Below are positions 15,141-20,005 of a DNA stretch of 20,005 nucleotides, in pieces (position 1 is the first letter of the stretch; every line of letters starts with the position of its first letter). The notes below the pieces were generated by a model. It did not search any database and was not told the origin of the DNA. It was given only the letters and a program-made list of their open reading frames with translations. The position numbers were made by a program, and so were the translations under genes. The DNA is taken from the IMG/VR virus record IMGVR_UViG_3300032241_000617, positions 1 to 20,005 of that record; one strand, given 5' to 3'. Origin of the DNA: a virus.

Positions 15141-16400
15141 ATGAAAGTTTATGAAGTAATCGCTGATGAAAGTATAGCTGGTGAATTATGGCAGGGAACT
15201 AAAGCTCTGGCTAAAGCTGGTGGCGAAAAGCTAATGGGTAAAGGATTACAAAGTCAAGCTATCGAACGACTTGAGAAAGAACTTACTGGCTTAAAAATTG
15301 ATGCAGTTAAGGCAGGCCACGATCCTAAAACTGTGCATTTAGATCCTGTGAGACTTGACAGTATTGCTGGAGGATTTATCAAAAAGGATCCTGAGATACT
15401 GGCCAAAGCTGAAGCCAAAGCCAATGCTGCCGCGGCCAAACTAGGCGGTATTAGTCTTAAGGCATTTGCTCCTGGCAATGTGTTTTACAAAGCATGGGAA
15501 TTATTCAAACTGTGGGGATTTACCGCAGCCAGCTTTGGTGCATGGAAGCAGTACTATGAAAATGTCACCAATGCTGAACAATACATGAATTTGCCCAACG
15601 GCGATCCACAAAAAATTACTCAAGCTCAATTTGATTCTATTCGCAGAGAAGAACTCACTATATTGATTGTAAAATTAGTAGCTTGCCTTCCGGCTATAGG
15701 TCTAAGCACTGCTAATAAGGTTACAAAAGTTATTGATAAAACACCATTCCTTAATGCTATTCCTGGAGTAACCAAACTAACCAAATTGGCCAGAGGCATG
15801 GACAATGCTATGTTGGGCTCTTGGTTATATTTTATCAATAGCGATACTGGCAAACAAATCGTAGTAAAAATTGCCTTGTTCAATGTGTGCGATGTATTGC
15901 CATTACAGGGTGTAAGCAAATTAACAGGTGTTGATCTGTGTGCTGATCTAAGTTCGCTAGTGGGCGGCACTGCTGAAACTTGGATTGACAAATTAAAATC
16001 AAACGTTCCTGCCATTTATAACTTTTTCAACTCAGTGGGTTCTGGAGTCAACACCGCAGTTAATGCAGTAACACCCTACACTGGTAAAATACCAGTAGTG
16101 GGAGGTGCTGTTAATCAAGCACTGGGTGCTAGACCTGACACAACTAGTGGTGGGCAAGGTACTAAACCTTCTGGTAATACTGCAACTGCCGGTCCGGCTG
16201 CCGGGTCAACTGCCCAAACAGATAAAGATGCTACTTCGCAACCAGCCGCAGGCGCTAATGCACCTAGTGCTAAATCAGAATGGCCGGGCGGTGCTCCGGG
16301 AACACCGGGAAGTCCTTGGCAAGACATGGGCGATGGTGAATTTATAAACAATAAAACGGGCGATGTTAAATTTATGCCCCGTGGTTCTAAATTAGATTAA
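15141..16400 (+). CDS. Putative virion/internal protein with T4 capsid-targeting-like N-terminus
   Basis: The protein has 419 residues and I do not recognise its family. The start is firm: AGGA eight bases upstream and a late octamer ahead. The first residues, MKVYEVIADES, resemble the MKTYQEFIAE start of T4 internal proteins and Alt, which targets them to the prohead before protease gp21 cuts it. No clear (L/I)-x-E cut site is visible in the first 60 residues. Two hydrophobic helices follow, near 110-140 (AWELFKLWGFTAASFGAW) and 172-187 (LTILIVKLVACLPAIG), and the middle has hydrophobic segments that may touch membrane. The last 90 residues are low complexity, Gly/Ala/Thr/Pro-rich, ending in a small motif, DMGDGEFINNKTGDVKFMPR. 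An injected or structural late protein is the best guess. Its end overlaps the converging gene by 9 bases. Confidence 0.8.
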   Translation: MKVYEVIADESIAGELWQGTKALAKAGGEKLMGKGLQSQAIERLEKELTGLKIDAVKAGHDPKTVHLDPVRLDSIAGGFIKKDPEILAKAEAKANAAAAKLGGISLKAFAPGNVFYKAWELFKLWGFTAASFGAWKQYYENVTNAEQYMNLPNGDPQKITQAQFDSIRREELTILIVKLVACLPAIGLSTANKVTKVIDKTPFLNAIPGVTKLTKLARGMDNAMLGSWLYFINSDTGKQIVVKIALFNVCDVLPLQGVSKLTGVDLCADLSSLVGGTAETWIDKLKSNVPAIYNFFNSVGSGVNTAVNAVTPYTGKIPVVGGAVNQALGARPDTTSGGQGTKPSGNTATAGPAAGSTAQTDKDATSQPAAGANAPSAKSEWPGGAPGTPGSPWQDMGDGEFINNKTGDVKFMPRGSKLD

Positions 16401-16580
16401 TGGCATTCCGGAAGTTTTAGTAGCTTCGATATTGTCATTGATAACACTATAGATCATTTGTCTATCTTCATAGCTGTAGATATGTAACAGATCATTCACA
16501 GAGATTCCTCCTCGCATGTACCAGGACACACGGAATAGCTCTAATTTAAATTCTTTTACTTGATCATCTAGCCTAACCAA
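16392..16580 (-). CDS. Small ORF after gp26, probably made as a -1 frameshift extension
   Basis: As a separate gene this would need the TTG at 16580 (62 residues) and has no good ribosome site. The frame has no ATG; it stays open upstream to a stop at 16659-16661, running through the end of gp26. From the proposed slip point the extension has 78 residues (FRLSLIGLTPEEIEQSLV..., then LFRVSWYMRGGISVNDLL and a tail ending MPLI). The Trp-Tyr-Met-Arg-Gly-Gly core is like small proteins encoded after gp26 in marine T4-like phages, whose job I cannot name; a tail-assembly chaperone is one possibility. Its 3' end overlaps the converging gene at 16392-16400. The coordinates given are the minimal TTG version; the transframe part begins at 16628. 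Confidence 0.7.
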   Translation of the reverse strand: MVRLDDQVKEFKLELFRVSWYMRGGISVNDLLHIYSYEDRQMIYSVINDNIEATKTSGMPLI

Positions 16581-16603
16581 ACTTTGTTCAATTTCTTCAG
16601 GCG

Positions 16604-16634
16604 TAAGCCCGATTAGGCTTAGACGAAAAAATTT
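16604..16634 (-). promoter_or_regulatory. Candidate programmed -1 ribosomal frameshift signal
   Basis: On the minus strand, near the end of gp26, the heptamer A-AAT-TTT (16634-16628) fits the X-XXY-YYZ slippery rule in the gp26 frame (AAT codes Asn270, TTT Phe271). Six bases later the stem TAAGCC (16621-16616) / GGCTTA (16609-16604) with a 6-base loop begins, and it contains the gp26 stop codon. A spacer of about 5-9 bases is usual. A -1 slip leads directly into the downstream ORF, which lacks a good start of its own. Confidence 0.55.
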
Positions 16635-17440
16635 GATTGATCTAGATCTACTCTGATGTTAGTTTCATGGCCGCAATTTTCGCACTTGACTGGAAAACTG
16701 GGAGTAGTCCACGTGGTTTTATTTTTTTCAATTTGATCTTTAATAGCATCAAATATTTTCTTATCACAATTTTCCAACCATTCTTTAATGTGTCCGCGTT
16801 CAGTAACTACGGTAGTGTCAATTTCTACACTTTCAACACTGAGCATGTACAGTTCATTTTGTATAACGGCCAGTTCTTTGAACAGTTGATTAACCATTGT
16901 TTGTTGTTGTTGCTGATCTTCTATCTGTTCAGCTTGACTAAGACGTTGTCTTAGACCAAAGTTTTTTACACTAAATCCAGAACTTTGTTTATAAGTCAGC
17001 GGTTGTGTTTTGATAACCATGTTGTCTAGAACAATCTTGTTGTCATAATGACAACTGCTAAAGTATTCGATAATTCTAGTCAAGTCCAAAGAGTAGTCAT
17101 TGTCTGTATTACATTGCGAGCAAGTGTGGCTAACGTCCATTAGATTACCATAGGTAGCAATTCTAATAGCTGAAAATATTAAATCAGTATCTAATACACT
17201 GAGATCCCAAGGATCTGTAATTGATGGACAGCAACTTTTGATAACTTGTACTGTACTTTCACCAGTGAGCAGACTATCCGGTGTTTTCATAATAATTTCG
17301 TCCATACCAGTCATACCAAAAACGGGCAAGCTGGTTACATCTCCTTTGATCACGTCAGGTTTATTGTAAATTCCTTGACTAGGTAATTTGATATAGATTT
17401 TAGCTTGTCTAAAATATTGTTGTAAAGGGTTATGTGCCAC
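16619..17440 (-). CDS. 26: Baseplate hub protein gp26-like
   Basis: I start at the GTG at 17440 (MAHNPLQQYFRQAKIYIKLP..., 273 residues). GGAG lies six bases upstream and a late promoter is 29 bases away, whose transcript would begin after the ATG at 17467, ruling that one out. The family core of T4 gp26 (T4 baseplate hub family) is clear: DVTSLPVFGMTGMDEIIMKT, PDSLLTGESTVQVIKSC, then DPWDLSVLDTDLIFSAIRI and ATYG. Two CxxC pairs (Cys107/Cys110 and Cys253/Cys256) probably make one zinc site. Between them is a Gln-rich helical region (EDQQQQQ). T4 gp26 has 208 residues and works in hub assembly. The gene lies back to back with the probable tape measure, and its end carries the frameshift signal, so it may act as a tail-assembly chaperone here. 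Confidence 0.82.
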   Translation of the reverse strand: MAHNPLQQYFRQAKIYIKLPSQGIYNKPDVIKGDVTSLPVFGMTGMDEIIMKTPDSLLTGESTVQVIKSCCPSITDPWDLSVLDTDLIFSAIRIATYGNLMDVSHTCSQCNTDNDYSLDLTRIIEYFSSCHYDNKIVLDNMVIKTQPLTYKQSSGFSVKNFGLRQRLSQAEQIEDQQQQQTMVNQLFKELAVIQNELYMLSVESVEIDTTVVTERGHIKEWLENCDKKIFDAIKDQIEKNKTTWTTPSFPVKCENCGHETNIRVDLDQSNFFV

Positions 17441-17451
17441 TATTATCTCCA

Positions 17452-17459: not shown

Positions 17460-17469
17460 TAATACATAG

Positions 17470-17477
17470 TATTTATA
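17470..17477 (-). promoter_or_regulatory. T4 late promoter, exact TATAAATA, for gp26
   Basis: On the minus strand this is the exact T4 late octamer TATAAATA, followed by CTATG. It is 29 bases upstream of the GTG start of gp26. The start site would fall near 17464, downstream of the ATG at 17467, which supports the GTG start. Confidence 0.7.
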
Positions 17478-17502: not shown

Positions 17503-20005
17503 ATGACAGATGAAGTTAACCTTAGTAAAAGCTCGATAGACGCCTTGGCAGAAAAGCTGGGTGGCGGTAATTCTGCTGCAAGAGAGTCCAGCGGTGGTGG
17601 TTTATCGGGTCTGAAGCTTGATGCAGACAGTTTTAACCGTGTTCTTGCAACAGCATCTCCCTTAGCAGTAGCATTTGGTGATCTTACCAAAGGTGCAAGT
17701 GGTGCTACTACAGTACTAAATGGACTGGCTTCAGGTGTTAAAGCTGTAGGATTAGAAGGTTTTGGTAATGCGTTAGGCACTTACGGCAAAGCATTGCTTG
17801 ATAACAAAGCTCAATTGGATGCTGCCGGTAAGATTGGTCTAGGTGGAAATGATATTGGTGCGTTTAATAGACAGGCCAAAGACGCTGGATTATCTACTCA
17901 AGAATTTACGCAGACCATACAAGAATCTAAGGGTTCTATTGGAGGCTTAACTGGTAGCGCATATCGCACAGGCGATGTGTTTAGTAAGTTGGCAGCGGAT
18001 GTAAGAACCAGCGATACTGGTCGCAATTTTCAAGCATTAGGTGGTACAACTAAAGAACTAGCAGATATTACAGCATTGAGCGTAATGAACGCTCGTAAAT
18101 TAGATCTTTCTAGACAAGAAGATCAATTAAAAGCCAAAATAGCCGCACAAGAACTAGCACAACAAATTACAGAAACTAGTCTAGCTACTGGAGTAAGCAG
18201 AGATGCTATTATTGCCGGCACCAAAGCAGAATTAGAAAAACCTAAAACTGCCATGGCCATGGCACAGATGTCAGAAGAACAACGAAAGGCATTTGAAAAA
18301 ACTCAAGCTTCGTTAGTTACTCTTGGACCAAGTGTACAAAATTTAGCTACAGAAATTATGACAGGCGGTGCCCGTACCAAAGATGCCAAAGACACACTGG
18401 CGGCTTTGGGTGCGCCGGGTATTGAACTACAACAAGCATTGTTAAGACAAAAAAATGCATCTACAGAAGTAGAAAAAGCTGAAGCTGCCAGAGCCGTTGA
18501 AAAAGCCAAGGCAGATATTAATGGTTTAATGGCTCAGAAAAGTTATAATGATCAGGCACAAACTGGTACAAGTGCAGTAGCACAGCAAATGGTCAAGTTG
18601 TATGGTGAAAATCAGTCATTAAATTCAGCTGCCGCTGCCGCAAAAGAAAATCAAAATAACTTTGAAAAAGGTCAACAAGCACAACAGGATGAGTCTCGTG
18701 CAAGAATGGCTGGACAAAAAGTAGATAAAGAAGGTAAACCAGTAGTAGATGAAAAAGGCAAAGCTGTAGCAGAAGAAGGACAACAAGCCACTAGATTAGT
18801 AAATGAACTAAATGCTAGAACTAAAGATCAGGCCGCAGGCTTGATGAATAACATTGAAAAAGCTAACAATGCTTTTTTCAAAACTCCCGAAGCTGTAGCT
18901 AATGCTAACAAGGCGTTAGACACACTAGTGGGTCCAAGACAAAATGTAAAAGAAGCTACTGAAAATCAAGCTTCTAAAATGAATGATGTTAAAGATTTAC
19001 TTAAAGATACTGTAAATTCTGTAACTGGCGGTAAGACCAGTGTGCCCGCCCCACAAGTACAAAGAGATGCTAGCGGTAATATTGCTCCTCCAGGTAGAGA
19101 CGGTGGTACATTAGAAAAAACAGGTAGTCCAGTTGAACCAAATGATGCTATTGTAAAAATCCACAAAGGCGAAACTGTATTAACTCCTGATGCTACTAAA
19201 AACATGGGCAAGGTAGTTTCAGATGCTAGTAAAACTGGTTCGCAAACTATCGATTCTACTCTAAGCCCAGCCAAGAGTCCCAATGCTCCTGGAGAAGGTA
19301 CAGCCAAAGAAAAAACTTCAGTAACTGAAGCCGATAGTGCTGAATACATGGCACAATGGAAGAAAAATTACAACGAACAAAGTGTTGTGATGATCGGTGC
19401 TGAAAAGCGTGATACCGAAGAAAGCATCCAGCGCAATCAAGAAAGAATTGCCCAGAAATCTGCAAAAATAAAAGAACTTGAAGATATCAAAGCCACTAGA
19501 GAACTAACAGATTCTGAACAAAGCGAACTTAGAATAGCTGAAAGAAGAAAGGCCAGAGCAGAACAAAACTTGGCAAGTGATCAAGCTCGCATAACAGTAT
19601 TGCAAGATATTGAAAAAAATGGACTAGGCAATCAAGCGGCCATGGTAGCAAAATGGCAAGAAGGTCAGGCACAAGCAAAGAAAGCTCAAGACGAAACAGC
19701 CGCGGCCACAACTAAAGCTCACGAAGAAGCAAAAGTTAAAGCAATAGAGAACGTTAAAGAAACTGTTACAATCAATGGCAAGGTAGTAGATCCCAACAGC
19801 CCTGAAGCACAAGCTGTAAAAAATAATGTTGCCGAAGCCAAGACCAGAATGTCTGAAATGCTTAAGAACATGGATCCTAAGTCTATTACAGAAATGGCAC
19901 TAATGGGCAAAGGAGATTCAGCTAAACAGGCAAAAGAATTTTTAATGAATCAGGTTAAAGAAACTATGCCTGATCCTACTAAACTAGCAGAGAAGATGCC
20001 AAGTG
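17503..20005 (+). CDS. Probable tail tape-measure/structural protein, partial (C-terminus beyond right edge)
   Basis: The frame is open from the ATG at 17503 to the window end (834 codons). It is rich in Ala, Gln, Lys and Glu and looks mostly helical, with long coiled-coil stretches (for example near 325-350, and about 625-700, AQKSAKIKELEDIKATREL). The first 100 residues are Gly/Ala/Ser-rich with a hydrophobic patch. At residues 547-561, NDAIVKIHKGETVLT is the I-H-K-G-E-x-V-L motif I know from tape-measure proteins of many phages. The tape measure sets tail length and is threaded in the tube. T4 gp29 has 590 residues; this is already longer. It lies next to the gp26/frameshift pair, as tape measures usually do beside tail chaperones. 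There is only a weak ribosome site (GGA eight bases upstream). Another large virion protein is the alternative. Confidence 0.78.
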   Translation, partial: MTDEVNLSKSSIDALAEKLGGGNSAARESSGGGLSGLKLDADSFNRVLATASPLAVAFGDLTKGASGATTVLNGLASGVKAVGLEGFGNALGTYGKALLDNKAQLDAAGKIGLGGNDIGAFNRQAKDAGLSTQEFTQTIQESKGSIGGLTGSAYRTGDVFSKLAADVRTSDTGRNFQALGGTTKELADITALSVMNARKLDLSRQEDQLKAKIAAQELAQQITETSLATGVSRDAIIAGTKAELEKPKTAMAMAQMSEEQRKAFEKTQASLVTLGPSVQNLATEIMTGGARTKDAKDTLAALGAPGIELQQALLRQKNASTEVEKAEAARAVEKAKADINGLMAQKSYNDQAQTGTSAVAQQMVKLYGENQSLNSAAAAAKENQNNFEKGQQAQQDESRARMAGQKVDKEGKPVVDEKGKAVAEEGQQATRLVNELNARTKDQAAGLMNNIEKANNAFFKTPEAVANANKALDTLVGPRQNVKEATENQASKMNDVKDLLKDTVNSVTGGKTSVPAPQVQRDASGNIAPPGRDGGTLEKTGSPVEPNDAIVKIHKGETVLTPDATKNMGKVVSDASKTGSQTIDSTLSPAKSPNAPGEGTAKEKTSVTEADSAEYMAQWKKNYNEQSVVMIGAEKRDTEESIQRNQERIAQKSAKIKELEDIKATRELTDSEQSELRIAERRKARAEQNLASDQARITVLQDIEKNGLGNQAAMVAKWQEGQAQAKKAQDETAAATTKAHEEAKVKAIENVKETVTINGKVVDPNSPEAQAVKNNVAEAKTRMSEMLKNMDPKSITEMALMGKGDSAKQAKEFLMNQVKETMPDPTKLAEKMPS

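Follow-up and report, generated by a model that had tools for sequence, protein, structure and literature searches.

Does a gp26-like gene in a phage genome end at its own stop codon, or is it also read past that stop, in the -1 frame, into the open reading frame (ORF) that follows? The question arises in a window of 20,005 nucleotides, the whole stretch analysed here (IMG/VR record IMGVR_UViG_3300032241_000617), where a reading of the sequence alone had proposed a -1 frameshift that joins gp26 with the ORF after it, as in the tail-assembly chaperones of many dsDNA phages. Comparison with relatives strongly supports this proposal, since the frame relation, a slip site and a stem that covaries are all conserved and the extension evolves like a protein. 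Programmed -1 frameshifting, giving a short gp26 of 273 aa and a long chaperone of 349 aa at the tail-assembly-chaperone locus of a T4-like phage, is in our judgement very probably the correct explanation of these sequences.

Identity and start of the gp26 gene

The first ORF (ORF1) is homologous to the T4 gp26 chaperone family. It matches PF12322 (T4_baseplate) in Pfam above the family cut-off (E 3e-15) and phrog_150 (baseplate hub) in PHROG (E 2e-19), and its AF2 model (pLDDT 89.5) resembles models of T4-like gp26 in BFVD, where the matches bear the name T4-like baseplate hub assembly protein. An ORF1-derived HMM was uninformative when compared with individual T4 gp26 and gp51 sequences, and it was Pfam that settled family membership. 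No convincing fold match was found in the PDB, and the PDB lists contained no solved chaperone such as HK97 gp13. The BFVD matches to the gp26 fold also include proteins of ~450-690 aa from the jumbo phages Ralstonia RP12/RSF1, Erwinia phiEaH2 and Klebsiella Eowyn, which are perhaps in-frame fusions.

Translation likely starts at GTG 17440 (Table 1), judging by relatives in which AGGAG or GGAG precedes an ATG at the homologous codon, and because the alternative ATG at 17467 sits at about the expected transcription start, behind the T4-late-promoter-like element TATAAATA. This element has two exact matches within the window and is not significant alone; 48 of 56 distinct relatives also have it 5' of their gp26 gene. 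Given this start, the fusion comes to 349 residues on translation, which reproduces the length of about 349 that had been proposed.

Table 1. Coordinates of the features discussed (window numbering).
Feature	Position	Strand	Basis or remark
ORF1, putative gp26-like short tail-assembly chaperone	16619..17440	minus	273 aa from GTG; TAA 16621-16619 included
T4-late-promoter-like element TATAAATA before gp26	17470..17477	minus	exact match
Shine-Dalgarno-like GGAG	17447..17450	minus	sequence; 6 nt ahead of GTG 17440
Slippery heptamer T_TTT_TTC (U_UUU_UUC)	16625..16631	minus	invariant among readable relatives
Heptamer A_AAT_TTT of the sequence-only reading	16628..16634	minus	overlaps T_TTT_TTC
-1 frame extension, putative C-terminal domain of the long form	16392..16625	minus	77 codons, CGT to ATC, plus stop (16394-16392)
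Downstream stem, 5' arm (conserved core 16618-16609)	16605..16619	minus	covariation in alignment A1
Downstream stem, 3' arm (conserved core 16580-16571)	16570..16584	minus	covariation in alignment A1
6-bp hairpin TAAGCC/GGCTTA over the stop, of the sequence-only reading	16604..16621	minus	present in window, not conserved

A conserved slip site overlapping the one proposed

The gp26 gene ends with GAT CAA TCA AAT TTT TTC GTC TAA. The in-phase A AAT TTT that had been proposed as the slip site is indeed there, followed by TTC GTC TAA, and a second heptamer, U_UUU_UUC, overlaps it, starting three bases further 3', equally in phase and separated from the gp26 stop by one sense codon (GTC). To compare the two, we used relatives collected from IMG/VR by gp26 protein similarity alone (80 loci, 41-70% identical). 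All loci with a readable 3' end (~77/80) have NNT TTT TTC, then between one and four sense codons up to the stop, beyond which a -1 ORF extends for ~220 nt; four loci are shortened by contig ends, two of them (L019, L052) within the second ORF and two (L043, L079) at or before its start. T_TTT_TTC is also present in all distinct cyanophage 3' ends listed. These two sets give the unbiased counts; a motif-guided tally, in which 125 of 126 distinct loci have TTC and one has TTG, chooses loci by the motif, as do the statistics on 47 representatives of group A, to which the window belongs.

The -1 overlap thus occurs in every readable locus, as had been expected of relatives, but the heptamer conserved with it is T_TTT_TTC and not A_AAT_TTT. 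Since the codon ahead of the two Phe codons varies (AAT, AGT, ACT, GGT) while its third-position T is constant, A_AAT_TTT is incidental; it is kept in 21 of the 47 group-A representatives and absent from loci beyond the group, which rules it out as the selected slip site. The constant T is never replaced by C, against a background T use of ~0.7 at such sites, although C would be synonymous in gp26 and the position precedes any newly decoded -1 codon. For the two silent T positions jointly, the chance probability is ~1e-9 (31 group-A representatives of <70% identity), a figure that is approximate because of their relatedness. Phe-Phe is encoded in both frames, hence part of the conservation of the heptamer is amino-acid constraint. 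An SD-like stimulator 5' of the group-A slip site is absent from all 53 distinct sequences, the window's included.

The -1 extension evolves as a protein

Past the last shared Phe codon the -1 frame stays open for 77 codons, and it is open for exactly 77 codons in 50/50 representatives. Among these 50, changes fall at codon positions 1, 2 and 3 in proportions of 30, 14 and 56%, with a median NG86 omega of 0.15; judged by this pattern, the extension is under coding selection and evolves as a protein. In alignment A3 of the second ORF, F1, F2, R3, W37, M39, R40, G41 and N67 are invariant.

That this ORF lacks an ATG of its own stands in the sense that none precedes the conserved core: the first in-frame ATG is codon 36, inside the conserved WYMRGG motif, and no earlier one occurs in the window or in 38 of the 47 group-A representatives, so that starting at codon 36 would cost half of the conserved domain. 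GTG and TTG positions are not conserved among the group-A representatives. Within the second ORF of the window, AGGAGG lies 7 nt ahead of an in-frame GTG (VNDL; 16497-16512, minus strand); translation could begin internally here, as it does for T4 gene 26', or the AGGAGG may merely represent two Gly codons of the conserved GG.

The AF2 model of the second ORF is an all-helical domain (pLDDT 89.5). It matches the RaK2-type second ORF with an HH probability of 96%, and there is a weak structural hint towards a 'hub assembly catalyst' of phage ZZ1 (E 4.8). HH comparison with the cyanophage second ORF or T4 gp51 gave no significant sequence match, and its equivalence to gp51 therefore rests on position and frame.

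A covarying RNA stem downstream of the slip site

We found that the slip site is followed, 5-6 nt past U_UUU_UUC, by an RNA stem of 10-15 bp. In the 33 distinct nearest sequences (alignment A1) it corresponds to columns 14-23 paired with 52-61, and its 10-bp core is paired in 326 of 330 cells (99%), with compensatory changes at three core pairs. In order, pairs 1-5 are G-C, C-G, C-G, U-A/U-G and A-U/G-C, and pairs 6-10 are A-U, U-G/U-A/C-G, U-A/C-G/A-U, G-U/A-U and G-C/G-U/A-U. A 12-pair version of the stem is paired in 92.9% of cells, as against 17-52% in slid controls, and shows 19 both-side changes where shuffles give 5.5. The fold of the window's stem has a z of -3.2; the 60 nt 3' of the slip site fold better than shuffles, and in the nearest group all 28 representatives are significant against codon-shuffled versions.

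Further group-A loci, together with Atu_ph07, Phosso and PA5oct, have other stems at approximately the same start distance; those of Atu_ph07 (GGCTCTTTGT/ACAAAGAGCC) and Phosso (GGCTCTTGTC/GGCAAGAGCC) differ at the same spacing. In Atu_ph07 (L081, 6010-6095) the outer helix GGCTCTTTGT/ACAAAGAGCC, to which the statistics apply, appears to surround an inner hairpin, AGAACCGGA/TTCCGGTTCT. Of the more distant group-A loci, about half have no detectable stem, and RNAalifold run on all 50 group-A sequences together returned no structure because the position of the 3' arm differs in the distant loci.

The hairpin named by the sequence-only reading, a perfect 6-bp stem with a 6-nt loop that covers the stop six bases after A_AAT_TTT, exists as described (TAAGCC-TAATCG-GGCTTA, 16621-16604). 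Its role as stimulator did not survive comparison: across relatives 52.5% of its cells pair, and all six pairs form in 1/50. It is an alternative to the longer conserved stem, with which it competes, and is ruled out as the stimulator.

Frameshifting against its alternatives

The locus therefore has the features of a programmed -1 site: an in-phase X_XXY_YYZ heptamer just ahead of the zero-frame stop, a coding-selected -1 ORF without a start of its own, and a putative stimulator. Such sites have a structure ~5-9 nt 3' or, in bacteria, an SD-like element 5'; the stem here begins 5-6 nt 3', and cyanophages have an SD-like element 10 nt 5'. Several database records annotate the second ORF as a separate gene, which implies translational coupling, that is, its separate synthesis by ribosomes that terminate on gp26 and re-initiate close to its stop. 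The cyanophages, with a conserved ATG 1-3 codons beyond the stop, the ATGA overlaps of Atu_ph07 and Phosso, and the TAATG without heptamer of Cygsa01 and Vibrio phage K369 all speak for such coupling. It is at odds with the missing early ATG and the shifting GTG/TTG positions of group A, and it leaves unexplained the invariant U_UUU_UUC, the covarying stem and the SD-like element at 10 nt; we consider it improbable.

Fusion might also arise from mixed mRNA if RNA polymerase slipped on the T6 run, which is after all the invariant element. Six T, however, make a shorter run than those on which transcriptional slippage is known, and they form part of an in-phase tandem slip heptamer. Covarying structure 3' of such a heptamer and an SD-like element at a fixed distance belong to ribosomal frameshifting, which makes this reading very unlikely. 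Least credible of all is the idea that the second ORF is decayed, or an independent small gene, and that the heptamer merely reflects conservation of FF(R) in the protein: the Phe-Phe of both frames does account for part of the constraint, but not for an omega of ~0.15, an exact length of 77 codons in the -1 frame, or a silent T before the Phe codons that is never C.

Known systems

Frameshifting in tail-chaperone genes is a classic phenomenon, and the window would add to a known kind a case with a well-defined covarying stimulator. As proposed for the window, the gpG/gpGT locus of phage lambda, a tail gene of a long-tailed phage, makes a short protein and a rarer -1 C-terminal extension, and its heptamer lies close to where the first ORF stops. 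The lambda heptamer is G_GGA_AAG, different from that of the window, and there is no detectable sequence relation; the window differs further in its strong covarying stem and in its divergent neighbour, in place of a co-directional tape measure. The lambda pair and the conservation of the tail-assembly-chaperone frameshift were reportedly described by Xu, Hendrix and Duda in 2004.

A passage of a 2016 review states that the tail-chaperone -1 frameshift is conserved among long-tailed phages except T4 (PMC5009743), and according to part of another article (PMC10885494) chaperone genes of T4-like phages were identified by Vladimirov et al. (2022). The remark that T4 gp26 is not usually described in this way holds for older reviews but not for this 2022 paper. 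We found no mention of a frameshift in the papers on RaK2 and Atu_ph07, nor any annotation of the slip site and RNA stem in the database records consulted. Vandenendeviridae and Andersonviridae (phage Adele) resemble the window, in the portion of the source that describes them: a poly-T motif where their short-form gene ends is the site of a conserved -1 frameshift. They belong to another phage lineage, their motif is GTTTTT, and that portion describes no stem covariation (PMC12846349).

Distribution among T4-related phages

T_TTT_TTC with a -1 ORF is present in Atu_ph07, Phosso, RaK2, 121Q, GAP32, Munch, XaC1, Kaldavass and PA5oct, as well as in the Vibrio T4-like phage VH7D, Aeromonas Aswh_1 and Rhizobium IC12; the heptamer of RL38J1 is T_TTT_TTG. 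T4-like cyanophages, whose gp26 is accompanied by a short gp51 called 'baseplate hub assembly catalyst' (PMC3037559), share with the window T_TTT_TTC and the -1 relation of gp51 to gp26. Their second ORF has ~60-70 residues, without detectable sequence relation to that of the window, and there is a conserved ATG past the stop. Unlike the window, they carry GGAGG exactly 10 nt 5' of the heptamer in 43 of 52 distinct sequences, and GAGG at 10 nt in five more. A significant downstream stem is seen in 11 of 14 cyanophage representatives (L084, L088-L167), and on these sequence features cyanophages may combine SD-like and stem stimulators. Vibrio phage K369 (L175), Kuttervirus SH19 (L177) and Pseudomonas phage Cygsa01 (L087) lack the heptamer and keep the second ORF in the -1 frame. 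These three may use coupling, and the TAATG stop-start overlaps of K369 and Cygsa01 suggest that coupling replaced frameshifting there.

In T4 itself, the hub assembly chaperones gp26 and gp51 come from two separate divergent genes, as opposed to one gene with a putative frameshift, and the homologous end of T4 gp26 reads GAG TTC TTT GAG, with no slip site. ORF1 shares its Pfam family with gp26 and with the N-terminal 200 residues of gp51. As T4 gp26 and gp51 each match the full PF12322 model, gp51 consists of a gp26-like domain plus a C-terminal domain; phrog_634 is common to the C-terminus of T4 gp51 and the short gp51 of cyanophages, and a passage of Sullivan et al. (2010; PMC3037559) treats cyanophage gp51 as the counterpart of the C-terminal part of T4 gp51. 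Like the window, T4 would thus have a short form and a form bearing the C-terminal domain, the same two products apparently made from two genes. We lean slightly towards the view that, across T4-related phages (jumbo RaK2/Atu_ph07-like phages, cyanophages, Vibrio and Aeromonas T4-likes), frameshifting at one fixed U_UUU_UUC is the ancestral means of producing both chaperone forms, that its stimulator was swapped repeatedly (the window's group having a covarying stem, cyanophages an SD-like element at 10 nt), and that T4 gp26/gp51 represent a derived duplication that froze both forms.

Proposed mechanism and implications

Under programmed frameshifting, most ribosomes would read gp26 to its stop and release the 273-aa form. 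A minority would halt at the stem just past the slip site, where tRNA-Phe, on both slip codons, could re-pair one base back, on UUU UUU; reading would then continue in the -1 frame to the 349-aa form with its predicted helical C-terminal domain of 77 residues. By analogy with gpG/gpGT of lambda, we expect the short form to coat the tape measure and the rare long form to recruit tail-tube subunits, with both departing before the virion is complete. The slippage itself, its efficiency and the chaperone role are what we infer from the conserved features described above.

T4 gp26 and gp51 have long been listed as hub parts or as an assembly catalyst of unknown action, and relatives with one frameshifted gene make a reading as short and long chaperone directly testable. 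This would also correct the annotation of isolates, where the records consulted give the second ORF as a separate, truncated or missing gene. The family also offers a natural data set on the pairing of a single slip site with varied stimulators.

Neighbouring genes

Divergent from gp26 lies an ORF rich in Ala, Lys and Glu that runs off the window end and encodes at least 834 aa (17503-20005, plus strand). It has no PHROG match, and homologues are found at this location in relatives. In RaK2 the corresponding neighbour carries an annotation of similarity to a tape measure and barely resembles the window's ORF (E 0.011), in which a stretch, IHKGETVLTP, recalls tape-measure proteins; we regard the ORF, which the sequence-only reading had called a probable tape measure, as no more than a candidate. 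On the other side, a convergent ORF of 419 aa with no Pfam match and a weak PHROG match (15141-16400, plus strand) faces the second chaperone ORF, which it overlaps by 9 nt on the opposite strand.
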